DNA of 14,616 nt, from positions 1 through 14,616 of the forward strand of contig ONPY01000068.1 of the NCBI GenBank assembly GCA_900319835.1, given 5' to 3'. Position numbers and translations under genes: made by a program. The notes below the pieces were generated by a model, which worked only from the letters and a program-made list of their open reading frames with translations, was not told the origin of the DNA and did not search any database. Shown piece after piece: positions 1 to 14,616 of this stretch. The number at the start of each line of letters is the position of its first letter. Position 1 is the first letter of the stretch. The stretch is from an uncultured Eubacteriales bacterium (GTDB lineage: Bacteria; Bacillota_A; Clostridia; Oscillospirales; Oscillospiraceae).

Positions 1-90
1 GTAGGCATGATGGAGATGGTTCTGGACGTTGACGACATCGTCAGCGAAATGAGCGCCATCCGTTCGGACTACTGCAAGTACCTGGGCTGA
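1..90 (+). CDS. grdA: glycine/sarcosine/betaine reductase selenoprotein A, C-terminal end only (copy 1)
   Basis: Frame 1 reads 29 residues and then TGA at 88-90. The start of this peptide, GMMEMVLDVD, and the charged end with a CKYLG terminus match the C-terminus I know for GrdA, the small selenoprotein that receives the carboxymethyl group from substrate-specific protein B and hands it to protein C. The selenocysteine region lies outside the window, so Sec is not seen here. The gene is partial because the window starts inside it. An identical 3' end occurs on the opposite strand at the other edge. The family call rests on recalled similarity of a short tail, but the grdC-grdD genes directly downstream support it strongly. 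Confidence 0.82.
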   Translation, partial: VGMMEMVLDVDDIVSEMSAIRSDYCKYLG

Positions 91-1769: not shown

Positions 1770-2921
1770 ATGAGTAATCTTCAGAAAACCATCGCCGAGG
1801 CTTTCCTGGAAATGGCACAGGGGCTGGAGAGCGGCTCCTTCGGCAAGAAGCCGAAGATCGCCCTGACCGGCATGGGCAGCGAGCACGGCGAGGAAAACGC
1901 CATGAAGGCCGCTTTGATGGCGGCTGCCCGCGGCGTTGACGTCTACTACATCGGCACCCTGGAAGCCGAGGGCGTGACCACCGTTCACGTGGAGAACGAG
2001 GACGAGGGCCACAAGAAGATGGATGAGCTGGTGGAGTCCGGCGCGGTTGACGGCGCCGTCACCATGCACTATCCGTTCCCCATCGGCGTGTCCACCGTCG
2101 GCCGTGTCATCACCCCCGCCAAGGGCAAGGAGATGTTCGTGGCCAACACCACCGGCACCTCCAGCGGCGACCGCATCGAGGGTATGATCAAGAACGCGGT
2201 TTACGGCATCATCACCGCCAAGGCCAGCGGCGTGAAGAACCCCACCGTGGGCATCCTGAACGTCGACGGCGCCCGCCAATGCGAGATCGCCCTCAACCAG
2301 CTCAAGGACGGCGGCTACGACTTTACGTGGGCCAATTCCGCCAGAGCTGACGGCGGCGCGGTCATGCGCGGCAACGACGTGCTGCAGGGCACCCCGGACG
2401 TCATGGTCATGGATTCCCTGACCGGCAACGTGCTCATCAAGATGCTCTCCGCCTATACCACCGGCGGCAGCTTCGAGGCCACCGGCTACGGCTACGGCCC
2501 CGGCATCGGCATGGATTACAACAAGCTGATCCTCATCATCTCCCGCGCTTCCGGCGCACCTCTGATCGCAAACGCCCTGGAGTTTGCGGCCCAGCTCGTG
2601 CGCGGCAAGGTCTTCGAGGTGGCGAAGGAGGAGTTTGCCAAGGCCGAAAAGGCGGGCTTCAGCAAGATCCTGGAGGCCCGCAAGGCTTCCGCCAAGTCCG
2701 CCGCTCCCGCCGAGGAGGTCAAGGCACCCCCCGCAGAGCCGTGCCCCGCTGCCATTCTGGGCGTCGAGGTCATGGATCTGGAGGACGCAGTCAAGGTCCT
2801 GTGGAAGGCCGGCATCTACGCCGAGTCCGGCATGGGCTGCACCGGCCCCGTCGTTCTTATGAGTGACGCCAACCACGACAAGGCAGTCGAACTGCTCAAG
2901 GCGGCAGGCTACATCGGCTGA
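1770..2921 (+). CDS. grdD: glycine/sarcosine/betaine reductase complex protein C, small subunit
   Basis: Encodes 383 residues with a PlsX-like (phosphate acyltransferase-like) fold expected for GrdD, the partner of GrdC in protein C. It forms an acetyl-thioester and releases acetyl phosphate. An Ala/Pro-rich linker (about residues 308-327) leads to a C-terminal segment with the motif GMGCTGPVVLMS. C357 in it corresponds to the thioester cysteine described near the C-terminus of clostridial GrdD. The start is fixed by GGAGGTG (1758-1764) immediately after the grdC stop. The reductase-specific protein B genes (grdB/F/H, grdE/G/I) are not in the window, so the substrate (glycine, sarcosine or betaine) cannot be assigned. 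The stop is an ordinary TGA after the complete family C-terminus. Confidence 0.95.
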   Translation: MSNLQKTIAEAFLEMAQGLESGSFGKKPKIALTGMGSEHGEENAMKAALMAAARGVDVYYIGTLEAEGVTTVHVENEDEGHKKMDELVESGAVDGAVTMHYPFPIGVSTVGRVITPAKGKEMFVANTTGTSSGDRIEGMIKNAVYGIITAKASGVKNPTVGILNVDGARQCEIALNQLKDGGYDFTWANSARADGGAVMRGNDVLQGTPDVMVMDSLTGNVLIKMLSAYTTGGSFEATGYGYGPGIGMDYNKLILIISRASGAPLIANALEFAAQLVRGKVFEVAKEEFAKAEKAGFSKILEARKASAKSAAPAEEVKAPPAEPCPAAILGVEVMDLEDAVKVLWKAGIYAESGMGCTGPVVLMSDANHDKAVELLKAAGYIG

Positions 2922-3026: not shown

Positions 3027-3167
3027 GTACCAATTGGGCGTGAAGAGGGGCTCCCCGCCCCCTTCACAATCCCCCTTACCTGTCTGCCAGTGTCTGAGTA
3101 AGCGGGGCCTTCTGCAAAAACAGTACGATATTTCTTAGTTGCTTTGAAAAACCAGGAGGATTGCGGC

Positions 3168-4328
3168 ATGAGATCGGTTTACCTGGATAACGGCGCAAGC
3201 GCCTTCCCCAAGGCTCCCGGTGTGGCCGAGGCCATGGCGGACTACCTGCTCCACAACGGGGCCAACGTCAACCGCGGCACCTACCGCTCGGCCAGCTCCG
3301 CCGCCATGACGGTGCTGGAGACGCGCACGCAGCTCAAAGAACTGTTCCATTTCCCGGGAAAAGAGACCGAGGTGCTCTTTACCCCGGGCCAGACCTACGG
3401 GCTCAATCAGATCCTGCGCGGCTTCCTGAAACCCGGGGACCATGTGATCGTCAGCAGCATGGAGCACAACGCCGTCATGCGGCCGATCATGGACCTGAAA
3501 AAGCAGGGGGTGACGTTTTCCCGCATCCCAGCGGACACGGCGGGGCGCACCCGGGCGGCGGATCTGCTGCCGCTCATCCGGGAGAACACCAGGCTTGTGA
3601 TGGTCTCCCACGCCTCAAACGTCAGCGGCACGCTCTTCCCCCTGGAGGAGACGGCGGCGCTGTGTTATGAGCGGGGCATCCCCCTCGCGGTGGACGCGGC
3701 CCAGACCGCGGGCCACCGGGACATTGACTTTGGCGCGCTGCACCTGGCGGCGCTTTCCGTCCCCGGCCACAAGGGACTGCTCGGCCCCCAGGGCATCGGC
3801 GCGCTGCTGGTGAAAAAGGACTTTGCCGGAAAGCTCACCCCGCTGATCACCGGAGGCACGGGCTCCGCCTCCGACAGCGAGGAGCAGCCGGCCTATATGC
3901 CGGACCGCTTTGAGTCCGGCACGGTGAATCTCCCCGGCGTTTTCGGCCTGCATGCCGCGCTCGGTTTCATTCTGGAGCAGGGCGTGGAGAGACTGGGCGA
4001 GCATGAGGAGAGATTGACCGCGCGTTTTCTCGCGGGCGTGCGGGCTCTGCCCCTGCGCGTGGCGGGACCGGCCGATCCCAAAGAGCAGGTGGGCGTGGTG
4101 TCCATCGACTTCACCGGCCGGGACAACGGCGAGATGGCCTTTGCCCTGGAACAGGAGTACGGCATCAGTACCCGCTGCGGCCTGCACTGCGCGCCCAACG
4201 CCCACAAGACCCTGGGCACCTTCCCGCAGGGGACGGTGCGCTTCTCCTTCGGGTATGCGACCACCGAGGAGGAGATCGACTGCACCGTGGAGGCCATCCG
4301 GCGCCTGACAGCGGAAGAAACGCGATAA
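3168..4328 (+). CDS. class V aminotransferase, cysteine desulfurase / selenocysteine lyase-like
   Basis: Encodes 386 residues of a PLP-dependent fold type I enzyme in the cysteine desulfurase (SufS/CsdB-like) group. Its likely job is taking sulfur from cysteine or selenium from selenocysteine. The PLP lysine is K202 in [13 protein letters not shown]. The substrate-side histidine region is SSMEHN (residues 96-101), and VDAAQTAGH (175-183) is the cofactor Asp/Gln/His segment. RCGLHCAP (336-343) matches the RxGxHCA motif, giving C341 as the likely persulfide/perselenide cysteine. ATG 3168 is chosen because AGGAGGA lies 7 bases upstream; a TTG at 3144 would be in frame but lies ahead of that site. 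It sits 77 bases before selD, which suggests selenium supply for selenophosphate. It resembles the EF2568-type subfamily often found near selenium genes. Desulfurase versus lyase cannot be decided from sequence. Confidence 0.88.
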
Positions 4329-4405: not shown

Positions 4406-5449
4406 GTGGCACACGCGAAGAAGAGATTGACCGAGATGGTGGCCGCGGCCGGCTGAGCGGCCAAGCTCCCACCAGGAGCACTCGCCAAGGTATTGTGCGA
4501 ACTTCCCAAATACCCCAACAAAGATATTCTGATCGGCTTTGATTCCTCGGACGACGCCTGCGTCTACCGGGTTTCAGACGATGTCGCCATTGTGCAGACG
4601 GTGGACTTCTTCCCACCCATGGTGGACGATCCCTATCTCTTCGGACAGATCGCCGCGGCCAATGCCATCTCCGACGTCTATGCCATGGGCGGAAAGCCCA
4701 TCTTTGCCCTGAATCTGCTGTGTTTCCCCAACTGCCTCGATTTGGAGGTGGCGGGGGAGATCCTGGCCGGAGGCGCCGACAAGGCGGCCGAGGCCATGTG
4801 TACCATCGCGGGGGGCCACTCCATCACCGATGACGAACCCAAGTACGGCATGTGTGTCACCGGCACGGTGCATCCTCAAAAGGTCCTGGCCAATAACAGC
4901 CCCCGCCAGGGGGACGCGGTGGTCATCACCAAGGCCCTGGGCACCGGCATCCTGACCACCGCCTTCAAGGGCGAGTTTATCGGAGAGGACGACCTCAAGC
5001 CTGCGACCGACGCCATGCGACAGCTCAACCGCTACGCGGCGGAGGCGGCGGAGGGCCTGCGGGTACACGCCTGCACGGACATCACGGGCTTCGGCTTTGC
5101 CGGGCACCTGTGTGAGATGATGGAGGGCAGCGGCATGACCGCGCAGATTTCGGCGCAAAAGCTGCCGATTCTGCCCAGAGCCATGGAGATGGCAAGCTAC
5201 GGCATGGTGCCCGGCGGCGCCTACCGCAACCGGGATCACTTTGGCTTGAAGCTGGACCTGTCCGGCGTCAGCCAGAGCTACGGCGATGTCATGCTCGACC
5301 CCCAGACCTCGGGAGGCCTGATGTTCTCCGTGGACGAGAGGGACGTGGAGACGCTGCTGCGCCGCCTGCGGGATGCGGGCGTGATCGGCGCGCAGGTCGG
5401 TTGGATATCTGCTTACGACGGGGTGTTGGTCAGAGCGAAGGAGCAATGA
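4406..5449 (+). CDS. selD: selenide, water dikinase (selenophosphate synthetase), selenocysteine-containing
   Basis: Makes selenophosphate from selenide and ATP, the selenium donor for SelA. The true start is GTG 4406, 5 bases after AAAGGAGGTG (4391-4400). Reading on, TGA at 4454-4456 is in frame at codon 17, within the peptide AAAG-U-AAKLPPG. This aligns with the GAGCGCK active-site loop of E. coli SelD, with Sec in place of C17 and Ala in place of C19. An annotation treating TGA as stop would start the gene late, around 4493, and lose the catalytic residue. Full length is 347 residues, normal for the family. Later motifs are DSSDDACVY, TVDFFPPMVDD, AAANAISDVYAMGG (metal/ATP-binding Asp), AGGHSITDDEP and DITGFGFAGHL. 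A terminator follows the stop. SelD therefore needs the Sec machinery it feeds. Confidence 0.95.
4454..4482 (+). promoter_or_regulatory. Sec UGA codon and candidate bacterial SECIS hairpin in selD
   Basis: The in-frame TGA (4454-4456) is followed after 8 bases by a hairpin: GCTCC (4465-4469), loop CACCA, GGAGC (4475-4479). Spacing fits a bacterial SECIS. The loop lacks the G usually found among its first two bases, so the exact fold recognised by SelB is uncertain. Confidence 0.6.
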
Positions 5450-5465
5450 CCGCACGCATGAAATT

Positions 5466-5502
5466 GGCGATGCTCATACTACGGTATGGCGTCGCCTTTT
5501 TT
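5466..5502 (+). terminator. Rho-independent terminator after selD
   Basis: GGCGATGC, a bulged T, and CATAC pair with GTATG and GCGTCGCC (one G-U pair). The stem is closed by the loop TACG inside C...G, a stable UNCG-type tetraloop. Six Ts follow at 5497-5502. It separates selD from selB1, leaving the selB1 promoter unclear. Confidence 0.9.
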
Positions 5503-5535
5503 ATGGAATAAAAAACGAGGAGCAGAGGATTCCCA

Positions 5536-5586
5536 ATGGCAGAGAGACACAAAAGAAGTGAGAGAAAAGCGGGGGCTGAGACATGA
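5536..5586 (+). CDS. possible 16-residue leader peptide upstream of selB1
   Basis: An ATG at 5536 opens a 16-codon frame, MAERHKRSERKAGAET, rich in Arg, Lys and Glu. Its TGA (5584-5586) overlaps the selB1 ATG as ATGA. It could couple translation into selB1, whose own upstream sequence has only a GCGGGGG stretch as a ribosome site. No family is recognised and it may be chance. Confidence 0.25.
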   Translation: MAERHKRSERKAGAET

Positions 5587-7520
5587 AGCACGTGATCATC
5601 GGCACCGCAGGACATATTGACCACGGCAAAAGCGCCCTGACCAGGGCGCTGGTCGGCGACCGGGAGGGCAGCCGGGGCATCGACCGACTGAAGGAAGAGC
5701 AAAAGCGCGGCATCACCATTGAGCTGGGCTTTGCTGAATTCATCCTGCCCAACGGCCAGTCGGCCAGTATCGTGGACGTGCCGGGCCATGAAAAGCTCAT
5801 CAAGCACATGCTGATGGGCGCCGGCGGCATGGATCTGGTGCTGCTGGTTGTGGCGGCGGACGAGGGCTTCATGCCCCAGACCAAGGAGCATTTGGAGATT
5901 CTGGGCCTGCTGGGACTCAAGCACGGTATCGTGGTGCTGACCAAGACAGACCTGGTGGACGCGGAATGGATCGAAGTTGTGAAGGAGGATCTGACCGAGC
6001 ACCTCAAGGGCAGCTCCCTTGAAAACGCCCCGGTGATGCTGGTGTCCTCCGCAACCGGCGAGGGGATCGAGGCGCTGCGAAACCGGATCCAGGAGATGGT
6101 GGAGCAGTTGGACGACCACACGGCGGACAAGCCCTTCCGGCTCCCGGTGGACCGCGTCTTCACGGTGCGCGGCTTTGGCACCGTCGTCACCGGAACGGCG
6201 GTGGACGGAGAGCTCAGCCAGGGGGAGAGCGTGATGATTTACCCCCAGGAGAAGCTCTGCAAGGTGCGCGAGATGCAGCACCATGAAGTCAAGCAGGAGC
6301 ACGTAAGCCCCGGTATGCGCGTGGCGCTGAACCTGGGCAACATCGACAAAAAGGAGCTGATGCGAGGCTGCACCGTGGCGGCTCCCGGCTCCATGCAGCT
6401 GACCAACCGCATCGCGGTGCGCCTGCAGATGACGCGTGACGCGGCCTTCAGCCTCAAAAACGCCTCGCGCGTACACTTCTATCAGGGCACCCAGGAGCTG
6501 ATCGGCAAGCTGCGGCTGCTGGATGCGAACATCCTCGGCCCCGGCGAGAGCGGCTACGCCCTCATCATGTTCACCGAGATGCTGACAGCCCGGAACCTGG
6601 ACAAGTTCATCATCCGCTTCTTCTCGCCCATGGTGACCGTGGGCGGCGGACAGATCCTGGATATGCAGTCGCCCCGTCTGCGCCGCGCGGACGAGGAGGT
6701 CGTGCGCCGTCTGGACCGCCTGGCAGGCCTGCCGGAGGAGCGGATCGGCCAGCTGGTCCTGGACGCAGGCAGCAGCATCCTGCCGGAGCAGGAGCTGGTA
6801 ACGGAGAGCGGACTTGCCGCCGGCACGGTGCGCAAGGCGCTGCGGCAGCTCTGCGACCGTGGGGAGATCTGCCCCATGGCGGACGGCTATGTGGCCGCGG
6901 CCAGTCTCAACGAGGTCTGGGCAAAGATCGAGGAGGCGCTGCGCGCCTTCCACCGGGATGAGCCGCTGGCCGAGGGGATGAACCTGGGCGAACTCAGGGA
7001 GAAGGTCTTCCCGGCGGGCAGCAGAGGCGCCGACGTCATTCTGGACGCCTTCGTGCAGCAGGGGAAGCTCCGCCGCAGCGGCGGGGCGGCAGCGCTGGCG
7101 GAGTTCAGCTCCGTCTTCTCGAACGAGCTGCGCCAGGCCCATGACCGGCTGGAGGGCATCTACCTGCGGGCAGGGCTGGACCCGCTGGGCAGCCAGGAGG
7201 CGGCCGAGGCCTTCGGGGAAAATACGAAGCAGTTTCGCCAGCTCACGCAGCGCATGCTGCAGGACGGCACCCTGATCGCCCTCGACCCCGCGACGCTTGT
7301 CCACAAAAACGCTTACCGCAGCGCGCTGGAGATGCTGGCGGAGATCTTCCGCGAGAAAGGCGAAGTGGTGCTGGGCGATTACCGGACCCGCCTCGGCGTG
7401 TCGAGAAAGAGCGCACTGCTCTACCTGGATTCCTTCGACGCAAAACGCATCACGCGTAAGATGGGCGACAAGCGTGTGGTGCTGAAGCTGCCGGAGGGGA
7501 TAGGCGAAACGCGATTGTAA
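5583..7520 (+). CDS. selB: selenocysteine-specific elongation factor SelB, paralogue 1
   Basis: Encodes 645 residues. SelB binds Sec-tRNA-Sec with GTP and delivers it to the ribosome at UGA codons marked by a SECIS hairpin. The EF-Tu-like G domain carries GHIDHGKS (10-17), GITIE (43-47), DVPGH (65-69) and TKTD (120-123). The beta-barrel domains run to about residue 350, followed by the winged-helix domain IV, ending in LGVSRKSALLYLDSFD and GDKRVVLK, which are expected to bind the SECIS RNA. Between LVG and DRLKEE there are about five extra residues (DREGSRGI region, 26-33) not present in the second SelB of this window. ATG 5583 gives the family N-terminus MKHVIIGTAGH. It is followed by the tRNA-Sec gene. 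All GTPase motifs look intact, so I see no sign of decay. Which mRNAs it serves is unknown. Confidence 0.95.
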   Translation: MKHVIIGTAGHIDHGKSALTRALVGDREGSRGIDRLKEEQKRGITIELGFAEFILPNGQSASIVDVPGHEKLIKHMLMGAGGMDLVLLVVAADEGFMPQTKEHLEILGLLGLKHGIVVLTKTDLVDAEWIEVVKEDLTEHLKGSSLENAPVMLVSSATGEGIEALRNRIQEMVEQLDDHTADKPFRLPVDRVFTVRGFGTVVTGTAVDGELSQGESVMIYPQEKLCKVREMQHHEVKQEHVSPGMRVALNLGNIDKKELMRGCTVAAPGSMQLTNRIAVRLQMTRDAAFSLKNASRVHFYQGTQELIGKLRLLDANILGPGESGYALIMFTEMLTARNLDKFIIRFFSPMVTVGGGQILDMQSPRLRRADEEVVRRLDRLAGLPEERIGQLVLDAGSSILPEQELVTESGLAAGTVRKALRQLCDRGEICPMADGYVAAASLNEVWAKIEEALRAFHRDEPLAEGMNLGELREKVFPAGSRGADVILDAFVQQGKLRRSGGAAALAEFSSVFSNELRQAHDRLEGIYLRAGLDPLGSQEAAEAFGENTKQFRQLTQRMLQDGTLIALDPATLVHKNAYRSALEMLAEIFREKGEVVLGDYRTRLGVSRKSALLYLDSFDAKRITRKMGDKRVVLKLPEGIGETRL

Positions 7521-7533
7521 AAAGAAGAGCATT

Positions 7534-7589
7534 TCTCCCGGTTACGCGGCCGCAGAACCGTGCGCGGCCGCGGAACCGGAAACGGGAGG
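7534..7589 (+). repeat. GC-rich hairpin region with an 18-bp-period direct repeat
   Basis: CGCGGCCGCAGAACCG (7545-7560) recurs at 7563-7578 with one change. GCGGCCGC in each copy lets them pair with each other, and outer CTCCCG/CGGGAG can close the structure. There is no T-run, so this is structured RNA after selB1 rather than a classic terminator. Bases 7590-7637 hold nothing I recognise. Confidence 0.6.
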
Positions 7590-7637
7590 AAGCCTTCAAA
7601 ACCGCGCTCTCACAGGGGGCAAAAGTGAAATCCGCTG

Positions 7638-7666
7638 TTGACTTTGCACGATCTCAATAGTATAAT
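7638..7666 (+). promoter_or_regulatory. strong sigma-70-type promoter for tRNA-Sec
   Basis: TTGACT (7638-7643), a 17-bp spacer and a perfect TATAAT (7661-7666). The predicted start at about 7673 is some 23 bases before the mature tRNA 5' end. Confidence 0.92.
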
Positions 7667-7695
7667 CGGACTTAGAAAAGAACGGTAGAAAATAT

Positions 7696-7790
7696 GGGAG
7701 TAGAAGGGTGACTGGTGTGCCCTCTGGTCTTCAAAACCAGTATAAGCAGCAGCCTGCTTGGGTGGGTTCGATTCCCACCTACTCTCGCCA
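7696..7790 (+). tRNA. selC: tRNA-Sec (anticodon TCA)
   Basis: The 95-nt gene has the bacterial selenocysteine tRNA shape. The acceptor stem is 8 bp, GGGAGTAG (7696-7703) with CTACTCTC (7779-7786), with one G-U pair. The extended D stem is AGGGTG/TGCCCT (7705-7723). The anticodon stem is CTGGT/ACCAG (7724-7740) with loop CTTCAAA, giving anticodon TCA at 7731-7733. The long variable arm is AAGCAG/CTGCTT. The T arm is GTGGG/CCCAC. G is the discriminator base and the CCA end is encoded (7788-7790). The tRNA is charged with serine, converted by SelA to Sec, and read at UGA by SelB. It is the only tRNA in the window, so both SelB proteins would have to use it unless another exists elsewhere. Confidence 0.98.
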
Positions 7791-7791
7791 T

Positions 7792-7834
7792 CAAACAGGA
7801 AATGTGTCCGCGGATGCATTTCCTGTTTGCTTTA
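7792..7834 (+). terminator. terminator-like hairpin after tRNA-Sec
   Basis: CAAACAGGAAATG (7792-7804) pairs perfectly with CATTTCCTGTTTG (7817-7829) over 13 bp. The loop contains the palindrome TCCGCGGA. The following CTTTA is a weak T-run. Position directly after the CCA end fits termination or 3' processing. Confidence 0.75.
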
Positions 7835-8048
7835 AGCCTTGCGCGGAGGCTGTAGCCGCGCCGGGTGAACACCGTTGGATCGCCGGCTCAAGCGGGGGCT
7901 GACCGCTCAGGCTGGATGTCCTTGACCAGGACAGGGGAGCGCGGCTGCAAAGCTCACCGTCCGAGAAAGATAAGCCCCGCAAAAAGGAGAGACGGCTGCA
8001 TGTCCCTCGGGGCTGGGAAAAGAGAATTGCATAAAGGAGGAATTTCTC
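7835..8048 (+). other. gene-free leader region before yedE with inverted repeats
   Basis: No gene is seen. Inverted repeats are present: GGCT/AGCC inside GCG/CGC near 7840-7862, AGCGG/CCGCT near 7891-7907, and TGTCCT/AGGACA (7917-7922, 7928-7933). The last overlaps TTGACC, a possible -35 box, but no good -10 box lies 16-18 bp away. A strong ribosome site (AAAGGAGG, 8033-8040) ends the region. A structured regulatory leader is possible but not shown. Confidence 0.4.
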
Positions 8049-9125
8049 ATGGCGAAAATGAAAAACCACCTCTGGGTGATTCTGACCGGCCTGGTCGTCG
8101 GTCTGGCCGCGGTGCTGCTGGCTAAGATGGGCAACCCCGGCAACATGGGCTTCTGCATTGCCTGCTTCATCCGTGACATCGCCGGCGGCGTCAAGATGCA
8201 CACCGCCGCTGTGGTACAGTACATCCGACCTGAGATCATCGGCATCGTCCTCGGCGCCATGGCCATGGCCCTCATTGGCGGCGAGTTCAAGGCCCAGGGC
8301 GGTTCCGCCCCGGTCAGCCGCTTCACCCTCGGTTTCTTCGTGATGGTCGGCGCTCTGATGTTCCTGGGCTGCCCCCTGCGTATGGTCATCCGCCTCGGCG
8401 GCGGCGACGGCAACGCCATCTTCGGTCTGCTGGGCTTCGTCGCCGGCGTCTGGTGCGGCACGGTTTTCCTCAACAAGGGCTTCACTTTCAAGCGCTCCTA
8501 CAATATGCCCAAGCTGGAGGGCTTCGTCCTGCCCGCTATCAATGTGGTCCTGCTGGTCCTGCTCCTGAGCGGCGCTGCTGTTCTGGCCTTCTCTGAGAAG
8601 GGTCCCGGCTCCATGCACGCGCCCATCGCGGTGGCTCTGATCGTCGGCCTGGTGGTCGGCGCTCTGGCCCAGAAGTCCCGCCTCTGCATGGCCGGCGGCA
8701 TCCGTGACGCCATCATGCTCAAGGACTTCCACCTGCTCTGGGGCTTCATTGCCATCTTCGTGGCTGTTCTGGTCGGCAACCTCGTGCTCGGCAAGTTCAA
8801 ACCCGGCTTTGACGGCCAGCCTGTCGCCTTCAATACCCTGGTGTCCGGCAACTTCCTGTGGGCCTTCCTGGGCATGTTCCTGGTCGGCCTGGCCTCCATC
8901 CTGCTGGGCGGCTGCCCCCTGCGTCAGCTGATCCTGGCCGGCGCCGGCAGCAGCGACGCTGTGATGGCCGTCCTCGGCATGACCGTGGGCGCAGCCTTCT
9001 GCCACAACTTCGGCTTCGCCTCCTCCGGCGACGGCACCACCGCCAACGGCCACATCGCCGTGATCGTGGGCATCGTCGTGACGCTGGTCATCGCCCTTGC
9101 AAACTGCAAGAAGGCTGAGGACTGA
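8049..9125 (+). CDS. yedE: YedE-type selenium metabolism membrane transporter
   Basis: Encodes a 358-residue, very hydrophobic protein with about nine to ten membrane segments, in the YeeE/YedE family. The family transports sulfur compounds, and the selenium-linked YedE branch is found with selenium genes. The two halves repeat the same Cys signatures. GFCIACFIRD (residues 35-43) and FLGCPLRM with C108 occur in the first half. SRLCMAGGIRD with C213 and GGCPLRQL with C289 occur in the second. This is the internal pseudo-symmetry expected of the family, and the cysteines are likely substrate-passing residues. AAAGGAGG is 8 bases before the ATG. The next gene, a TusA-like carrier, starts 22 bases after the stop, a usual pairing in which TusA accepts the imported chalcogen. 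Selenium specificity is inferred from the neighbours. Confidence 0.9.
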   Translation: MAKMKNHLWVILTGLVVGLAAVLLAKMGNPGNMGFCIACFIRDIAGGVKMHTAAVVQYIRPEIIGIVLGAMAMALIGGEFKAQGGSAPVSRFTLGFFVMVGALMFLGCPLRMVIRLGGGDGNAIFGLLGFVAGVWCGTVFLNKGFTFKRSYNMPKLEGFVLPAINVVLLVLLLSGAAVLAFSEKGPGSMHAPIAVALIVGLVVGALAQKSRLCMAGGIRDAIMLKDFHLLWGFIAIFVAVLVGNLVLGKFKPGFDGQPVAFNTLVSGNFLWAFLGMFLVGLASILLGGCPLRQLILAGAGSSDAVMAVLGMTVGAAFCHNFGFASSGDGTTANGHIAVIVGIVVTLVIALANCKKAED

Positions 9126-9147
9126 ACTGAAACGGGAGGAATACCCC

Positions 9148-9354
9148 ATGAAAATTGTGGACGCCCGGGGCTATGCCTGCCCCCAGCCTGTCATCATGAC
9201 CAAGAAGGCGCTGGAGAATAACGGCGCCCCGCTTCAGGTCCTGGTGGACAGCAAGACTCCCCTGGAAAATGTGACTCGCTTCGCGACCAACGCGGGCTTC
9301 CAGGTAACCAGCAAACCCATGGAAGACGGCGAGTTTGAAATCATCATCCAGTAA
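9148..9354 (+). CDS. TusA/SirA-like sulfur or selenium carrier protein
   Basis: Encodes 68 residues, one TusA-like domain. The signature RGYACPQPVIMTKKAL (7-22) contains the CPxP motif, and C11 is the residue that carries persulfide, or here perhaps perselenide. ATG 9148 is chosen because GGGAGGA lies 7 bases upstream; a longer in-frame reading from 9097 runs back into yedE and lacks a site. It directly follows yedE and is probably in the same operon. The related selenium protein YedF has this domain fused to a second DsrE-like domain, which is absent here, so this is a stand-alone carrier. The likely role is taking selenium from YedE toward SelD, by inference. Confidence 0.87.
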   Translation: MKIVDARGYACPQPVIMTKKALENNGAPLQVLVDSKTPLENVTRFATNAGFQVTSKPMEDGEFEIIIQ

Positions 9355-9359
9355 TGCCA

Positions 9360-9392
9360 TTTCCCCTCCCGGCTCTTCGCCGGGAGGGGAAA
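9360..9392 (+). repeat. perfect 14-bp stem hairpin between tusA-like and radical SAM genes
   Basis: TTTCCCCTCCCGGC (9360-9373) and GCCGGGAGGGGAAA (9379-9392) enclose TCTTC. No T-run follows, so complete termination is unlikely. It could partially terminate or stabilise the yedE-tusA part of the transcript. It ends 8 bases before the next ribosome site. Confidence 0.75.
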
Positions 9393-9412
9393 ACCGAAGG
9401 AAGGAGAGGGAA

Positions 9413-10288
9413 ATGGAGTACGAAGGCCAGATCTGCCGCAGCCCCATGGAGCGGGCCAGCTTCATGCTGCCCGTTGCGGTGGGCTGCTCCCACAACGCCT
9501 GCAGCTTCTGCATGCTGTTTAAGCATCTGCAGTACCGCGTGCTGCCCAAAGAGCAGGTCTTTGCGGAGATCGACCGTGTCGCCGCCATCGGCGGCAACCC
9601 CGAGCGTGTATTTCTGGGCGATGGCAACGCCTTTTCCCTCTCCGCCGCTGAGTTGACCGAGATCCTGGAAAAGCTCCGCGCTTCCTTCCCTGGGCTCAGG
9701 AGCGTCGCTATGGACTCCACGGTGAAAAATGTCCTGGACAAGAGCGATGAGGAGCTGGCCCGGCTCCATGAGCTGGGTGTGACGGACCTCTATCTCGGTA
9801 TCGAGTGCGCGCTGGAGGATGTGCTGAGCTTTGTCAACAAGGGGAACACCCTCTTTCAGGCGGAGGCCGCCATCGAACGCCTGCACCGGGCGGGCATCGA
9901 CTACGACGCCCATATCATGACCGGCATCTGCGGCCACGGACGCGGTGAGGAAAACGCCGCGGCTCTGGCGGACTTCTTCCTGCGGACGCGGCCCCTGCGC
10001 ATCTGCAACTTCTCCCTGTTCCTCCACAAGCGCGCGCCGCTGTACCGGGACGTGCTGGGCGGGCGCTACGTCCCCGCTGACGAGCTGGAAAACCTCCGGG
10101 AGGAGCTCCGGCTGCTGGAAAGGCTGGATGGCCTGGAGGCGTTGTACGACGGGATGCACGATTTCATCCCCTTCCGGGTGCGCGGCAAACTCCCCGCGGA
10201 CCGGGAGACCATGTGCATCAAGCTCCGCGCGGAGATCGCGCGCCTTGAGAAAGAACCGGAGAGCATCGCCATCGGAATCGTCGAATAA
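9413..10288 (+). CDS. radical SAM protein of unknown function
   Basis: Encodes 291 residues. The N-terminal motif GCSHNACSFC gives C25, C30 and C33, a Cx4Cx2C spacing for the 4Fe-4S cluster instead of the common Cx3Cx2C. FLGDGNAF (about residue 64) and YLGIECALEDVLSFVNKG (about 128-145) are typical later strands of the radical SAM barrel, involved in SAM binding. I see no cobalamin-binding domain and no extra C-terminal cluster cysteines. ATG 9413 follows AAGGAGAGGG. It lies 58 bases after the TusA-like gene and before a strong terminator, so it is likely the last gene of the yedE transcript. A role in selenium metabolism is suggested only by location. The substrate is unknown. Confidence 0.85.
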   Translation: MEYEGQICRSPMERASFMLPVAVGCSHNACSFCMLFKHLQYRVLPKEQVFAEIDRVAAIGGNPERVFLGDGNAFSLSAAELTEILEKLRASFPGLRSVAMDSTVKNVLDKSDEELARLHELGVTDLYLGIECALEDVLSFVNKGNTLFQAEAAIERLHRAGIDYDAHIMTGICGHGRGEENAAALADFFLRTRPLRICNFSLFLHKRAPLYRDVLGGRYVPADELENLREELRLLERLDGLEALYDGMHDFIPFRVRGKLPADRETMCIKLRAEIARLEKEPESIAIGIVE

Positions 10289-10291
10289 GGG

Positions 10292-10343
10292 CAGCGTCCC
10301 CGCAAACGGATTGCGCAGGTCCGCTTGCGGGGATGCTGTTTTT
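10292..10343 (+). terminator. Rho-independent terminator after radical SAM gene
   Basis: CAGCGTCCCCGCAA (10292-10305) pairs with TTGCGGGGATGCTG (10325-10338) with one G-T wobble. An inner CGGA/TCCG helix extends it, and TTTTT follows at 10339-10343. It ends the yedE-tusA-radical SAM transcript. Confidence 0.9.
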
Positions 10344-10354
10344 CCGGGAGGGGC

Positions 10355-10383
10355 TTGAGGAGCCGGGGCGCGCGTGATACAAT
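10355..10383 (+). promoter_or_regulatory. promoter for the 76-residue gene
   Basis: TTGAGG (10355-10360), a 17-bp spacer and TACAAT (10378-10383), with TG one base before the -10 box (extended -10). Located right after a terminator, it gives the next small gene its own transcript. Confidence 0.75.
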
Positions 10384-10417
10384 ATAGAAAAACCGCCGAA
10401 AGGGGAGGGGAGAATCC

Positions 10418-10648
10418 ATGGGCCTGTTTCCAAAACGCAAGACAGAGCCGGTGCTGCCGGACTATGACCTCACGGCCTTTGAGCCCGTGATCCGCGCCAG
10501 TATCTGCACCGGCGAGAAGGTGGCCTGTATGCGGGAGCGGGAGTCCGGAAAGCTGCACGAGCTGATGCTGGTCCGGACGGATGAGGACCTGCAGCGCTTT
10601 TGCCGCGCCTATGGCCTGACGGCGAAAGATATTCGGACAGTCTATTAA
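10418..10648 (+). CDS. small conserved-looking protein of unknown function
   Basis: Encodes 76 residues: basic N-terminus, then RASICTGEKVACMRE and a C-terminal acidic/aromatic part (RTDEDLQRFCRAYGLTAKDI). No signal peptide or membrane segment is seen. There are three cysteines (C30, C37, C62) but no CxxC. A promoter with extended -10 and an AGGGGAGGGG ribosome site about 8 bases before ATG 10418 show it is a real gene. It is transcribed alone between two terminators. I have a weak sense that similar small proteins occur in Clostridia with no known function, but cannot name a family. Location in a selenium island is the only hint of a role. Confidence 0.7.
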   Translation: MGLFPKRKTEPVLPDYDLTAFEPVIRASICTGEKVACMRERESGKLHELMLVRTDEDLQRFCRAYGLTAKDIRTVY

Positions 10649-10729
10649 AGGTTGACATAATCTAAACAACATAATATGGAAGACATAATCAAATAATTAT
10701 CATTTAATATACATAAATGAGTTGACATA
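10649..10729 (+). repeat. AT-rich convergent intergenic stretch with repeated GACATAA words
   Basis: GTTGACATAA occurs at 10651-10660 and 10721-10730, exactly 70 bp apart. GACATAATC occurs at 10654-10662 and 10682-10690. An inverted repeat TCATTTA/TAAATGA sits at 10700-10720. The stretch is strikingly AT-rich against its surroundings. TTGACA in each copy resembles a -35 box, but I find no matching -10 box or gene. Confidence 0.6.
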
Positions 10730-10766
10730 AAGCCACCCGGCGTCCATCGGACGCCGGGTGGCTTTT
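10730..10766. terminator. bidirectional terminator between convergent genes
   Basis: AAGCCACCCGGCGTCC (10730-10745), loop ATC, and GGACGCCGGGTGGCTT (10749-10764), a perfect 16-bp stem. TTTT ends the + side. The other strand ends with a shorter CTTTA. It closes the + strand small gene and the - strand DUF3343 gene. Confidence 0.88.
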
Positions 10767-10775
10767 CGGTGTGAA

Positions 10776-11021
10776 TTATTCCTCGCTCTGGTTGAGAAAG
10801 ATGGTGCGAAAGCCGCTGCCCTCCCGGACATAAACTCCGGCAAGATCCTCGTCGGCCCAGGCGGGGTCGAAGGGGAGCTCAAAGCGGACGCAGGTGCCGC
10901 AGGAGGCGGAGAGCTTGCGGGGGACCGGCATCATGACGGCGGTCGCGTCGCCCAGGCTGTCCAGCTTCTTTTTCAGCCGCAGGGCGCCCAGGTGGGTGTG
11001 AAAGGTGGCAAGCTGTTCCAT
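10776..11021 (-). CDS. DUF3343 family protein, putative Se/S carrier
   Basis: Encodes 81 residues. The segment PVPRKLSASCGTCVRFELP (33-50) matches the DUF3343 (Pfam PF11823, putative Se/S carrier) pattern in which a cysteine after PVPR-x-L/I-S-x-S is conserved; here C41, with C44 forming CGTC. The N-terminus (TFHTHLGALRLKKKL) also fits. It starts 12 bases after the selB2 stop with GAGGGGG before the ATG, so it is the third gene of the selA-selB2 operon. Its likely role is handling selenium or sulfur as a bound persulfide or perselenide, or feeding SelD. This is inferred from family name and location; the biochemical activity of the family is not well settled. Confidence 0.85.
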   Translation of the reverse strand: MEQLATFHTHLGALRLKKKLDSLGDATAVMMPVPRKLSASCGTCVRFELPFDPAWADEDLAGVYVREGSGFRTIFLNQSEE

Positions 11022-11033
11022 GGCCGTGCCCCC

Positions 11034-12944
11034 TCACTTCAGAGGCTTGAGCAGCACGCGTTTGTCGCCCGTCAGCTTGGAGATCTTCTGACTGTCAAAG
11101 TAGTCCAGGAAATACTGGGCAAACTTGCGGGAAATGCCCATTTTAGTGCGGTAGTCGCCGATGGCCACGGCGTCGGCGTCGGCAAACATGCCGAGAAAGG
11201 TTTCCAGCGCCTGCTTGCAGGCGGAGGCGTGGCAGGTGACGTTGGGGTTGAGCGCCACCAGGATCCCGTCACGCGTCATGCGGGCCATGACCTGGCGGGT
11301 CAGCTTCGGGTCCTTGCCGAAGGACTCGGCCACCTCGGTGTTCAGCGGAGGCTCAAAACCGCACTTGAGATAGTGGGCTTCCAGCTCTGCCTGGAGAGAG
11401 GCCTGCTCGGGCGAGTAGTCCGCCTGGAAGCTCGGGAGGGAGACGCTGCTGCCCACGATGCGCAGCTTGCCCTTGTCCTTGAGGTAGTTGAGCACCACGT
11501 CGTTGGTCTTGGCAGAGACGGTGAAGAGCTTGCCGCGAAACTCGCTCAAACTCATGCCCTCCATGAGGGACTGGGCCTCGTGGTGCTTTTTCAGGATGAC
11601 GGCGGCCTTTTCCTCCAGCTCGTCCAGCACCTTGCGGGCCGCAAAGCCGCCCTGAATGCGGACGGTGACGCCCATCTGCTGCAGCTCCTGGATGGCGGCG
11701 TGCACCGCCTTGGCGGAGAGACCGCTGGCGGAGACCAGCTCCGCCTCCTTGATCAGCGAGCAGCCCGCGTCCTCGATCATCTGGTAGATGCGGTTGACGG
11801 GGGTGGAGTGCAGGCGATCCAGCCGTTCGATCTCCTGGGGGGAGTTTAACTTGATGCGGCGGGGCTGCACGTCCAGGATCACGCCGCCGCCCACGGTGGT
11901 CATGGGGGAGAAGAAACGGACGATGAAGCGGTCCAGGTTTCTGGCCACGATGCTCTCGTTTTTAAAGACAAGCTGGGCGTAGGCCTTTTCTCCGGGCTTT
12001 AAGGAGCTGCGGTCCAAGAAGCGGACCTTGCAAACGGCCTCCTGCGTGCCGGTGTAGAAATGCAGGAAGGAGTAGTTTTTGACGCGATAAGGGGAGTCCG
12101 GCGTCAGTTGGAGTTCCACGGTGATCTTGTCAGTCTGGAACATGGAGCCGGGCTCGGCGATGATGCAGCCGCGGCTGATGTCCTTTTTATCGATACCGGC
12201 CAGGTTGATGGCGACCCGCATGCCGGCCTCCACAGATTCCACCTTGGTGTCGTGGTTTTGGAGCTCTCTGGCCTTGGTTTCCAGCATCTCGGGATAGACC
12301 ATCAGCGCGTCGCCGGTATTCAGTGTGCCGTCTACCGAGGTGCCGGTGACCACGGTGCCGAAGCCCTTGATGGAGAAGACCCGGTCCACGGGCAGACGGA
12401 AGGGGCGATCGGTGGCACGGGCGGGAGACTCCGCCAGCAGCTCCACGATCTTGGCCTTCAGCTCTTCGATGCCCTCGCCGGTGTAAGAGGAGACATGGAC
12501 GATAGGGGCATTTTCCAGAAAGCTGCCCTGGACCTGATCGCGGATATCCTCCTCCACGGCCTCTATCCACTCGGGATCGGCCAGGTCGCACTTGGTCAGT
12601 ACGATGATGCCGTTTTTCACGTCCAGCAGGGAGAGAATGTCCAGATGCTCCCGCGTCTGCGGCATGAAGCCCTCGTCCGCGGCGATGACCAGCAGCACCA
12701 CGTCGATGCCGGTGGCGCCCATGAGCATGTTGTGGATCAGCCGCTCATGTCCCGGCACGTCCACAATGCTGGCCCGCTGGCCGTTTGGCAGCGTCAGCTG
12801 GGCAAAGCCGATCTCAATGGTGATGCCGCGCTTCTGCTCTTCCTTCAGCCGGTCCGTATCCACGCCGGTCAGGGCCTTGGTCAGGCAGGTCTTGCCGTGA
12901 TCCACATGGCCGGCGGTTCCGATGACAATGTGTTTCATATCCAT
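11034..12944 (-). CDS. selB: selenocysteine-specific elongation factor SelB, paralogue 2
   Basis: Encodes 636 residues with the same four-domain layout as the + strand SelB but clearly divergent sequence. The G domain carries GHVDHGKT (12-19), GITIE (40-44), DVPGH (62-66) and TKCD (117-120). The segment LTGVDTDRLKEE has the usual SelB form without the insertion of paralogue 1. The C-terminal winged helices end in MGISRKFAQYFLDYFD and GDKRVLLK. The ATG at 12944 overlaps the selA stop as TGATG, indicating translational coupling. A second ATG at 12938 (MKHIVIG) is equally close to the family N-terminus. The selA-selB order is the classic bacterial arrangement, so this may be the ancestral copy, with paralogue 1 the specialised or acquired one (inference). 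Confidence 0.95.
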   Translation of the reverse strand: MDMKHIVIGTAGHVDHGKTCLTKALTGVDTDRLKEEQKRGITIEIGFAQLTLPNGQRASIVDVPGHERLIHNMLMGATGIDVVLLVIAADEGFMPQTREHLDILSLLDVKNGIIVLTKCDLADPEWIEAVEEDIRDQVQGSFLENAPIVHVSSYTGEGIEELKAKIVELLAESPARATDRPFRLPVDRVFSIKGFGTVVTGTSVDGTLNTGDALMVYPEMLETKARELQNHDTKVESVEAGMRVAINLAGIDKKDISRGCIIAEPGSMFQTDKITVELQLTPDSPYRVKNYSFLHFYTGTQEAVCKVRFLDRSSLKPGEKAYAQLVFKNESIVARNLDRFIVRFFSPMTTVGGGVILDVQPRRIKLNSPQEIERLDRLHSTPVNRIYQMIEDAGCSLIKEAELVSASGLSAKAVHAAIQELQQMGVTVRIQGGFAARKVLDELEEKAAVILKKHHEAQSLMEGMSLSEFRGKLFTVSAKTNDVVLNYLKDKGKLRIVGSSVSLPSFQADYSPEQASLQAELEAHYLKCGFEPPLNTEVAESFGKDPKLTRQVMARMTRDGILVALNPNVTCHASACKQALETFLGMFADADAVAIGDYRTKMGISRKFAQYFLDYFDSQKISKLTGDKRVLLKPLK

Positions 12945-14347
12945 CAAGCCTTTGCTTCCTGATTGATTCTGGCAAGCGCTGCGGCGATCTCGTCCAGGTC
13001 GCCCTCAAGCAGGGTGCGGGCCGAGAGCAGCAGACTGTCCCGGCTGATGCGGGCGATGACCGGCACCGCGTTTGCGCGGAGCTTCTTCTCCAACTGCTCG
13101 GGCCGAAGCGCACCCACCTGGATCGCGAGAGCCGCCCCGTCCAGAAACACGTCCGGCAGGGAGCCGCCGCCCGCCTCATCCTGCACGGAGACGAGGTCCG
13201 CGTAAATCTCCGGCGCGGCGGCGCGGATGTTTTCCTTGAGTGTCCGGCAGATCGCGCGGCAGTCGTCCTCCGTCCGGGAGAGCATGTGCAGGGCGGGGAT
13301 GTGTTCGGCGGCGAGGGCCGGATCCACGCTGTAGCGCAGAGCGTATTCCAGCGCCGCCAGCGACAGCTTGTCGATGCGCAGCATGCGCGTCAGATGGTTC
13401 TTCTTGATCTGGTCGATGTACTTCTTTTTGCCGATGAGCACGCCCGCCTGGGCGGAGCCCAGCAGCTTGTCGCCGGAGAAGGAGACCACGTCCGCCCCGG
13501 CGCGCAGGCACTTGCCGGCCACATGGCCCTCCCCGTGCAGGCCGAAGTGCTCGCAGGGGAAGAGAAAGCCGGAGCCCAGGTCGTACAGCAGCAGCGCGCC
13601 TTTTTCCCGGGCGATGGGGCCCAGCTCCTCGATCTCCACGGACTCGGTAAAGCCGCGGATTTTGAAGTTGCTGGTGTGCACCTTCAGCAGCGCCTCGGCG
13701 CCGCTGTCAATGGCATTGACGTAGTCATAGGGGTGGGTCTTGTTGGTGGTGCCGATTTCCATGAGCGCGGCACCGCTGCGCGTCATGATCTCCGGCACAC
13801 GGAAGGAGCCGCCGATTTCCACCAGCTCGCCCCGGGAGACGGCCACGGTCTTGCCCTGGCAGAGGGTGTTGAGCATGAGAAAGACCGCGCCGGCGTTGTT
13901 GTTGACGACCATGGCGGCCTCGGCCCCCGTGATCTCACAGAGCAGGCGCTCGATGTGGGAATAGCGGCTGCCGCGCTCGCCCTTTTCCAGGTTGTATTCA
14001 AGGTTGCTGTACCCGGCGGCTACGGCGGCCACATGCTCCGCTGCCTCCCGGCCCAGGGGTGCGCGGCCCAGGTTGGTGTGCAGGACCACGCCGGTGGCGT
14101 TGATGACACGGCGCAGAGAATAATAATCGCCATGCCGGAGCCGTTCCAAAACCTGCGCGGCAAGCGCCGGGGCGGAGGGGACGGCGTCAGCCGTGCCGGC
14201 CAGCAGGGACTGGCGGAGGGTCTCGGTTTCCTCCTTCAAGAGTTCCCGCACGAGTACATAGGGGTGCTCCTCGCAGGCCCGGCGGATTTCGGGCAGAGCC
14301 AGCAAACTGTCAATTTTTGGGATCCTGCGGAGAAGAGCGTTGTTCAT
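12944..14347 (-). CDS. selA: L-seryl-tRNA(Sec) selenium transferase
   Basis: Encodes 467 residues, close to E. coli SelA (463). It is a PLP enzyme that converts Ser-tRNA-Sec to Sec-tRNA-Sec using selenophosphate from SelD. The PLP lysine is K294 in VVSFSGDKLLGSAQAG. Other signature segments are RRVINATGVVLHTNLGRAPLG (about 79-99), VVNNNAGAVFL (147-157), GELVEIGGSFRVP and LLLYDLGSGF. ATG 14347 is chosen because GAAGGAGAA lies 7 bases upstream. A longer in-frame reading to 14449 would add a hydrophobic stretch but runs across the promoter, so it is rejected. It is the first gene of the selA-selB2-DUF3343 operon. Confidence 0.96.
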   Translation of the reverse strand: MNNALLRRIPKIDSLLALPEIRRACEEHPYVLVRELLKEETETLRQSLLAGTADAVPSAPALAAQVLERLRHGDYYSLRRVINATGVVLHTNLGRAPLGREAAEHVAAVAAGYSNLEYNLEKGERGSRYSHIERLLCEITGAEAAMVVNNNAGAVFLMLNTLCQGKTVAVSRGELVEIGGSFRVPEIMTRSGAALMEIGTTNKTHPYDYVNAIDSGAEALLKVHTSNFKIRGFTESVEIEELGPIAREKGALLLYDLGSGFLFPCEHFGLHGEGHVAGKCLRAGADVVSFSGDKLLGSAQAGVLIGKKKYIDQIKKNHLTRMLRIDKLSLAALEYALRYSVDPALAAEHIPALHMLSRTEDDCRAICRTLKENIRAAAPEIYADLVSVQDEAGGGSLPDVFLDGAALAIQVGALRPEQLEKKLRANAVPVIARISRDSLLLSARTLLEGDLDEIAAALARINQEAKA

Positions 14348-14420: not shown

Positions 14421-14449
14421 ATTATAATATCTGAGAGAGGAAAAATCAA
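14421..14449 (-). promoter_or_regulatory. promoter of the selA-selB2-DUF3343 operon
   Basis: Read on the - strand: TTGATT (14449-14444), a 17-bp spacer and a perfect TATAAT (14426-14421). The predicted start near 14414 leaves a leader of about 65 bases before selA. Confidence 0.88.
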
Positions 14450-14477: not shown

Positions 14478-14507
14478 AGAAAAAGGCGGCAGAGTTTTCT
14501 GCCGCCT
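14478..14507 (-). terminator. Rho-independent terminator after grdA copy 2
   Basis: On the - strand AGGCGGCAGA and TCTGCCGCCT form a 10-bp stem (14507-14484) with loop AAAC, followed by TTTTTCTTT. It isolates the second grdA from the selA promoter that follows. Confidence 0.9.
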
Positions 14508-14517
14508 CGCGTGCCGT

Positions 14518-14616
14518 TTGGCTTGATCAGCCCAGGTACTTGCAGTAGTCCGAACGGATGGCGCTCATTTCGCTGACGATGTCGTCAACGTCCAGAACCA
14601 TCTCCATCATGCCTAC
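14518..14616 (-). repeat. right arm of 99-bp exact terminal inverted repeat
   Basis: Exact reverse complement of bases 1-99, ending 9 bases past the stop of grdA copy 2. Beyond it the two loci diverge completely (different terminators and neighbours), so these are two genomic sites, not one site read twice, unless the sequence was misassembled. Confidence 0.97.
14527..14616 (-). CDS. grdA: glycine/sarcosine/betaine reductase selenoprotein A, C-terminal end only (copy 2)
   Basis: The - strand reading gives the same 29 C-terminal residues as the left-edge copy, ending in TGA (14529-14527). The gene body lies beyond the window. Unlike copy 1 it is not followed by grdC-grdD but by its own terminator and then the selA operon. 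Identity at every base including silent positions points to a recent duplication, gene conversion or an assembly overlap. The GrdA assignment rests on the GMMEMVLDVD tail. Confidence 0.8.
   Translation of the reverse strand, partial: VGMMEMVLDVDDIVSEMSAIRSDYCKYLG

Follow-up and report, generated by a model that had tools for sequence, protein, structure and literature searches.

The 14,616-nucleotide stretch of DNA analysed here (contig ONPY01000068.1 of GenBank assembly GCA_900319835.1, from an uncultured Eubacteriales bacterium; hereafter the window) encodes two divergent copies of SelB, the selenocysteine (Sec) elongation factor, together with one SelA and one tRNA-Sec. On this contig the two-SelB arrangement is real, and it is uncommon. 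In our view, which we hold with moderate confidence, the best explanation is that two selenium clusters have merged, leaving two SelB proteins that overlap in specificity and differ in expression. Such a pair allows one to ask whether natural pairings of SelB with the selenocysteine insertion sequence (SECIS) can be orthogonal, a question that is useful for selenoprotein engineering.

The two SelB proteins

The sel genes of the window are as follows.
4406–5449, forward strand: selD, a selenoprotein gene (TIGR00476, 357 bits over the region downstream of the TGA).
5583–7520, forward strand: selB1, 645 residues (TIGR00475, 335.7 bits).
7696–7790, forward strand: selC, tRNA-Sec with anticodon tca (ARAGORN; Rfam RF01852, 70.8 bits).
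11034–12944, reverse strand: selB2, about 634–636 residues, starting at ATG 12944 or 12938 (TIGR00475, 372.9 bits).
12944–14347, reverse strand: selA, selenocysteine synthase (TIGR00474, 551.6 bits).

An earlier reading of the window from its sequence only had proposed two genuine SelB proteins, and this is confirmed: both are full-length, lie on one contig and score above the curated selB cut-off of TIGR00475 (242.25 bits). The same reading placed SelB1 between selD and selC, as it is, and described SelB2 as coupled to selA; the two genes overlap at TGATG, which holds the selA stop codon and the start of selB2. The two proteins were also said to differ along their length, in agreement with the 51% identity that we find over 636 columns. 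Both retain the GTPase motifs (P-loop, switch I RGIT, DVPGHE and TKxD, which we take to be the motifs at these alignment columns) and the SECIS-binding winged-helix (WH) end (PF09106 and PF09107), again as claimed. Both also have the EF-Tu-like domains, and both match the solved SelB winged-helix chains 1lva (5e-21 and 6e-21) and 2ply. D190, R191 and R246 are invariant in a 44-row alignment that holds both proteins, and VDR.F and GMR in domain II presumably supply the residues of the Sec-tRNA pocket. WH4 is the main SECIS contact of SelB. In its SRK motif the RK is invariant and the adjacent residues differ in the alignment.

SelB1 has a five-residue insertion before switch I. We considered this as a mark of new function in a two-SelB genome and rejected the idea, because SelB proteins of the same clade (that of the relative G001 described below, P0006 and P0013) carry the insertion too. 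The predicted model of SelB1 has a mean predicted local distance difference test score (pLDDT) of 86 and superposes on Escherichia coli SelB (5lzb) over 638 columns with template-modelling scores of 0.79/0.83. The pLDDT falls below 50 at residues 8–11, 28–30 and 32–46 and at the last four residues, so that the insertion is not resolved in the model.

Gene order in relatives

The genes that accompany the sel genes, apart from those at the contig ends, are the following.
210–1757, forward strand: grdC, component C subunit beta (NF040746, 786 bits).
1770–2921, forward strand: grdD, component C subunit alpha (NF040747, 563 bits).
3144–4328, forward strand: csd, cysteine desulfurase-like (TIGR01977, 417 bits; cut-off 377).
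8049–9125, forward strand: yedE, putative selenium transporter (TIGR04112, 491 bits).
9097–9354, forward strand: yedF/TusA-like (PF01206; TIGR03527, 58.7 bits, under the YedF cut-off of 110).
9335–10288, forward strand: radical SAM protein (PF04055).
10776–11021, reverse strand: DUF3343-type putative Se/S carrier (PF11823, 41.9 bits).

Scanning genome contigs with SelB1 gave five loci, the best of which (L001) belongs to the Oscillospiraceae metagenome-assembled genome RUI270 (G001). This genome has one SelB over the cut-off, within the run grdC–grdD–csd–selD–selA–selB–selC–yedE–yedF–DUF3343–radical SAM. Its proteins are identical to those of the window at 92% (grdC), 97% (grdD), 81% (csd), 74% (selD), 61% (selA), 65% (selB, compared with SelB1) and 88% (yedE) of positions. 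The SelB1 arm of the window follows the same order and lacks selA; the DUF3343 gene, which in G001 separates yedF from the radical SAM gene, is here a neighbour of selB2. Judged by gene order, SelB1 is the resident copy, since G001 has the same cluster with selD–selA–selB–selC and a single SelB.

Within the genus of G001, SelB was found in two of the 102 genomes sampled, G001 itself and G441. In G441 the series grdC, grdD, csd, selD leads straight into the selC promoter and then selC, at which point the contig ends; a second contig carries selA–selB–yedE–yedF–DUF3343, and its selB, 68% identical to SelB2, is the only one found. Three states are thus seen: selD–selA–selB–selC in G001, selD–selB1–selC plus selA–selB2 in the window, and selD–selC plus a selA–selB2-type pair in G441. 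They suggest that two selenium clusters probably merged, with selA reduced to one copy and selB still double. G001 and G441, from one genus, and the window would together give a step-by-step view of a possible replacement of a Sec cluster.

Phylogeny

A tree that joined the two proteins as recent, near-identical duplicates would have spoken against specialisation. In our trees SelB1 and SelB2 are not sisters: each belongs to a clade of its own, the two clades being neighbours with supports of 100 and 99 (107 rows) or 100 and 96 (56 rows). SelB1 groups with the SelB of G001 and SelB2 with that of G441. Recent duplication of selB is ruled out by the 51% identity and the separate clades; on the same alignments and trees the pair is old.

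The SelA of the window groups (support 99) with P0138 and P0139, apart from its counterpart in G001. P0138 and P0139 are listed on contigs equal in size to those of P0063 and P0055, which belong to the SelB2 clade, and the nearest relatives of the SelA–SelB2 module seem to travel together. We also note P0161, a protein of 774 residues with AIRS (SelD-type) and SelA domains and apparently a SelD–SelA fusion; its contig is equal in size to that of P0009 from the SelB1 clade.

Evolutionary constraint

To near relatives the identities are 91% (SelB1 and P0002), 88% (SelB2 and P0057) and 88% (SelA and P0134). The 56 changes between SelB1 and P0002 lie at more variable columns than the remaining positions (p 2e-9), as do the 74 changes between SelB2 and P0057 (p 2e-10). 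A set of 125 near-invariant columns was defined on 80 other proteins; SelB1 differs from it at four columns, P0002 at three and SelB2 at none, and of five further proteins compared three have no departures and two have two each; SelB2 and these five are among the 80, so the comparison favours them. With the G-domain, Sec-pocket and SECIS-arm motifs present and changes from near relatives confined largely to variable sites, both proteins look functional as far as their sequences can tell.

Relative-rate tests with different outgroups gave unique changes of 80:50, 66:63, 84:55 and 66:37 for SelB1 against G001 SelB, and 83:43 and 68:55 for SelB1 against P0006. Four of these six reach a nominal, uncorrected p < 0.05, and the two with outgroup P0012 (66:63 and 68:55) are not significant. 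The sequences therefore suggest that SelB1 evolved somewhat faster than either comparison protein, the acceleration being mild. Broken down by domain, the excess peaks in WH1 and WH3, is lower in the G domain (17:8 at most) and amounts to little in WH4 (10:8, 7:9, 9:9, 9:6, 12:9 and 9:8 over the six tests). SelB2 compared with the SelB of G441 showed no significant excess in any of three tests.

SECIS class and expression

The sequence-only reading suggested that the pair might divide the work by SECIS class (grdA/grdB versus selD), by expression conditions, or with one protein regulating through a SECIS-like leader. The first proposal fared poorly. G001 has only the SelB1 type, and in G441 only the SelB2 type was found; each carries Sec-GrdA and Sec-SelD, with one in-frame TGA in each gene, so that one SelB of either type seems sufficient for both clients. 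Matches to GrdB had no in-frame stop in G001 (three matches, two of them partial) or G441 (one match). One SelB type is thus absent from each of these close relatives with apparently normal Sec insertion, and on these two draft genomes strict SECIS specialisation is weakened. In the SelD hairpin the loop is CACCA in the window and GCC in G001, the loop and closing pair differing through synonymous changes, and the window hairpin is weak (z −1.9); the comparison across types covers SelD and GrdA of two genomes and, from the window, SelD, a set too small to support a conclusion. A motif script for Sec codons missed known SelD sites, and its matches were apparently out of frame except for that in GrdA of G441.

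The predicted signals of the window are as follows.
5466–5502, forward strand: terminator-like hairpin with six T in the selD/selB1 gap (from the fold and the T run).
7638–7666, forward strand: promoter-like site of selC, 11/12 consensus match.
10729–10765, between the converging gene groups: terminator-like 17-bp palindrome with a 3-base loop.
14421–14449, reverse strand: promoter-like site before selA–selB2, 10/12 consensus match.
14483–14508, reverse strand: terminator-like hairpin in the gap between the second grdA copy and selA.

A split by expression is partly upheld: the predicted signals do differ, with a terminator-like hairpin before selB1 and a separate promoter-like site, located after a terminator-like hairpin, before selA–selB2, but they are predictions only. 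On these signals different expression would be likelier than a split by SECIS class. The selD/selB1 gap (5450–5582) folds with z −4.2, and its hairpin does not appear in the list from the consensus scan. We considered this hairpin as a SECIS-like leader; with its six-T end it looks like a terminator. In G001 the gap between selD and selA is merely short. TTGAC and TATA-like boxes precede selC in the window, G001 and G441.

Occurrence of two SelB proteins

The assumption that one selB per genome is the usual situation holds for 388 of 393 distinct SelB-bearing genomes. These were drawn from five samples with overlaps removed by hand, in which SelB was counted in 61/400 genomes (family; 60 over the family cut-off, G028 being a fragment under it), 2/102 (genus), 22/394 (order), 60/391 (class; protein query, E 1e-80) and 263/398 (phylum). 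Absence is soft here because completeness is not stated for the sampled genomes. The remaining five, G222, G269, G1410, G1440 and G1519, have two SelB proteins each.

Single selA genes accompany the pairs of G1519, G222 and G1440; G1410 and G269 have two. In G1519 a selC–selB and a selA–selB locus lie far apart on one 3.8-Mb contig, and the SelB proteins, 40% identical, are sisters in a sparse, long-branched tree. The two of G222 are 43% identical and share one 750-kb contig; some 2.8 kb separate the second (L087) from a gene for formate dehydrogenase that contains an in-frame TGA, with fdhD beyond, and neither selA nor selC was found on that 15-kb stretch. The G1440 pair is 72% identical and on two contigs. 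We doubt that G1410 is a true two-SelB genome, as its SelB proteins are 86% identical and on different contigs and there is a second selA. G269, which has two selA and two selC genes on separate contigs, is possibly a mixture.

It is conceivable, though we think it doubtful, that two SelB proteins with one SelA and one tRNA-Sec form a recurring stable arrangement in bacteria, in which selB resists reduction through work divided by client mRNA or by condition. Such recurrence would follow cluster merger or selB duplication, and the window, G1519 and G222 would be independent cases. As a separate observation, the genome of G1519 is a single contig, and near the first of its two loci (L150 and L151) two open reading frames (ORFs) begin with VPHPVGM or VPHPMGM and a third is similar.

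Origin of the pair

We infer the following history. Two selenium clusters from related lineages would have been joined in one genome. The resident cluster would have comprised the grd genes, selD, selA, selB1, selC, yedE and yedF and lost its selA; the second would have brought selA–selB2, with some exchange of genes. selA, and perhaps yedE, yedF and DUF3343 too, would have been reduced to single copies and selB would not. Both SelB proteins would take Sec-tRNA-Sec from the single selC/selA pathway and decode UGA as Sec with largely overlapping specificity, SelB2 probably being made with SelA from its own promoter and SelB1 lying behind a terminator and next to selC.

Several points weigh against this history. 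The SelA of G441 lies nearer to the G001 group than to the SelA of the window, so that congruence of the SelA tree is incomplete; either gene exchange took place repeatedly or the merger model is too simple. That equal contig sizes mean one contig is an assumption, as is the origin of P0002, P0057 and P0134 from one species. Each sel gene except selB is single within the window, and this count covers the window alone. It is a guess, prompted by G441, that the incoming module once included yedE, yedF and DUF3343. The long stem branch of SelB1 (0.45) and its changes at near-invariant columns would fit relaxed constraint too. Finally, the promoters and terminators are predicted, as consensus matches or folds, and the consensus scan returned 11 promoter-like sites compared with 2.7 in shuffles and 21 terminator-like sites compared with 11.7.

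The branch length and the changed columns, together with the four nominally significant rate tests and the terminator-like hairpin upstream of selB1, also suit a transitional redundancy in which the work has passed to SelB2, leaving SelB1 as a remnant being lost. G441, with selD directly before selC and no SelB1 at the homologous place, may have completed such a loss. Against this, the SelB1 frame is intact at 645 residues, P0002 keeps the gene with a similar number of near-invariant columns changed, recent changes in SelB1 avoid conserved sites as clearly as those in SelB2, and the acceleration is mild, not significant with outgroup P0012 and strongest in WH1 and WH3. That SelB1 is a pseudogene is rejected as stated, given its intact frame, motifs and constrained changes; slow decay we retain as an unlikely alternative. 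A division of labour in which each SelB prefers different selenoprotein mRNAs and both are needed appears less probable still. It would account for selB being the sole doubled sel gene of the window, for the excess change in the winged-helix arm, for the unlike SelD hairpins of the window and G001, and for the pairs of G1519 and G222; in either genome both selB genes share a contig and selA is single, and in G222 one of the two is near a Sec-formate dehydrogenase gene. Yet relatives with one SelB of either type have both Sec clients, WH4 shows little excess change, only one complete selenoprotein gene is recognised in the window and its SelD hairpin is weak.

An assembly chimera that joins arms of two organisms with one SelB each seems to us very improbable. 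The window is probably a metagenome contig, single-type lineages exist and both contig ends lie inside a repeat. However, the arms are complementary, with one selA, one selD and one selC in total and no selA in the SelB1 arm; they meet between genes, at the intact 17-bp palindrome, and agree in GC content overall and at third codon positions (GC3). P0002 is listed on a 14,632-bp contig, a length close to that of the window and one to be expected of a contig flanked by the same pair of grdA repeats, and the close clusters are similar in member count (SelB1 68, SelB2 46, SelA 56). These arguments fall short of proof. Compared with the merger of two clusters, both decay of SelB1 and chimerism are less likely.

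Comparison with known systems

Bacterial SelB systems (TIGR00475) share the domains, motifs and selA, selC and selD neighbours seen here; the window differs from them in having two divergent SelB proteins with one selA and one selC. The excerpts of PMC5330540 describe two complete Sec operons with non-identical tRNA-Sec copies in Photobacterium profundum 3TCK, which resembles the window in having more than one Sec operon per genome; in the window, by contrast, selB is double and selA and selC are single. Horizontal transfer of selA–selB–selC with a selenoprotein gene is described in the excerpts of PMC1794560. There too sel genes move as a cluster, whereas the recipient here was presumably already decoding Sec and selA–selB2 has no adjacent selC. 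According to the excerpts of PMC4342817, the archaeal SelB paralogue aSelBL can accompany SelB and shows variable degrees of G-domain disruption, unlike the two SelB proteins of the window, which keep their G-domain motifs; the count given there for duplications of the SelB family in bacteria is about one. Excess SelB may sequester Sec-tRNA-Sec (PMC8124441, in excerpt). The available portions of PMC1273633, PMC1780047, PMC13188914, PMC9312934 and PMC8124441 contain no two-SelB/one-SelA arrangement. Phrase searches of the open-licence literature found no such arrangement and no paper on Peptoclostridium acidaminophilum with selB. A selDABC cluster has reportedly been described in Eubacterium acidaminophilum.

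Contig ends and other features

The contig ends hold two partial genes.
1–90, forward strand: 3' end of grdA copy 1 (glycine reductase selenoprotein A); the contig starts inside the gene.
14518–14616, reverse strand: 3' end of grdA copy 2 and the bases to 12 past the stop.

Positions 1–99 and 14518–14616 carry the grdA 3' end in opposite orientations; the two copies agree over exactly 99 bases and diverge beyond. Ends of 99 bases are as a k-mer assembler would leave them at a two-copy repeat, so the window probably spans the complete interval from one grdA gene to another; recombination between the inverted copies could flip the enclosed segment. We considered grdB for these ends and rejected it in favour of grdA: the 29 residues of copy 1 are 83% identical to the C-terminus of the G001 gene that matches GrdA (NF040748).

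The selD frame runs through a Sec codon (TGA 4454–4456) within an AGUAAK motif that is also present in G001 and G441, and the likely start is GTG 4406 behind GGAGG. As SelD is a selenoprotein, the Sec machinery here needs its own product. A plain ORF call shortens the gene. No second match to selA was found in the window; the listed selA ORF begins too early, inside the promoter-like site, and the likely start is ATG 14347 with AAGGAG upstream. The csd product scores below the cut-off for the selenocysteine lyase SclA (NF040779, 377 bits compared with 525). Downstream of the radical SAM gene, at 10418–10648, lies a 76-residue ORF without a Pfam match.

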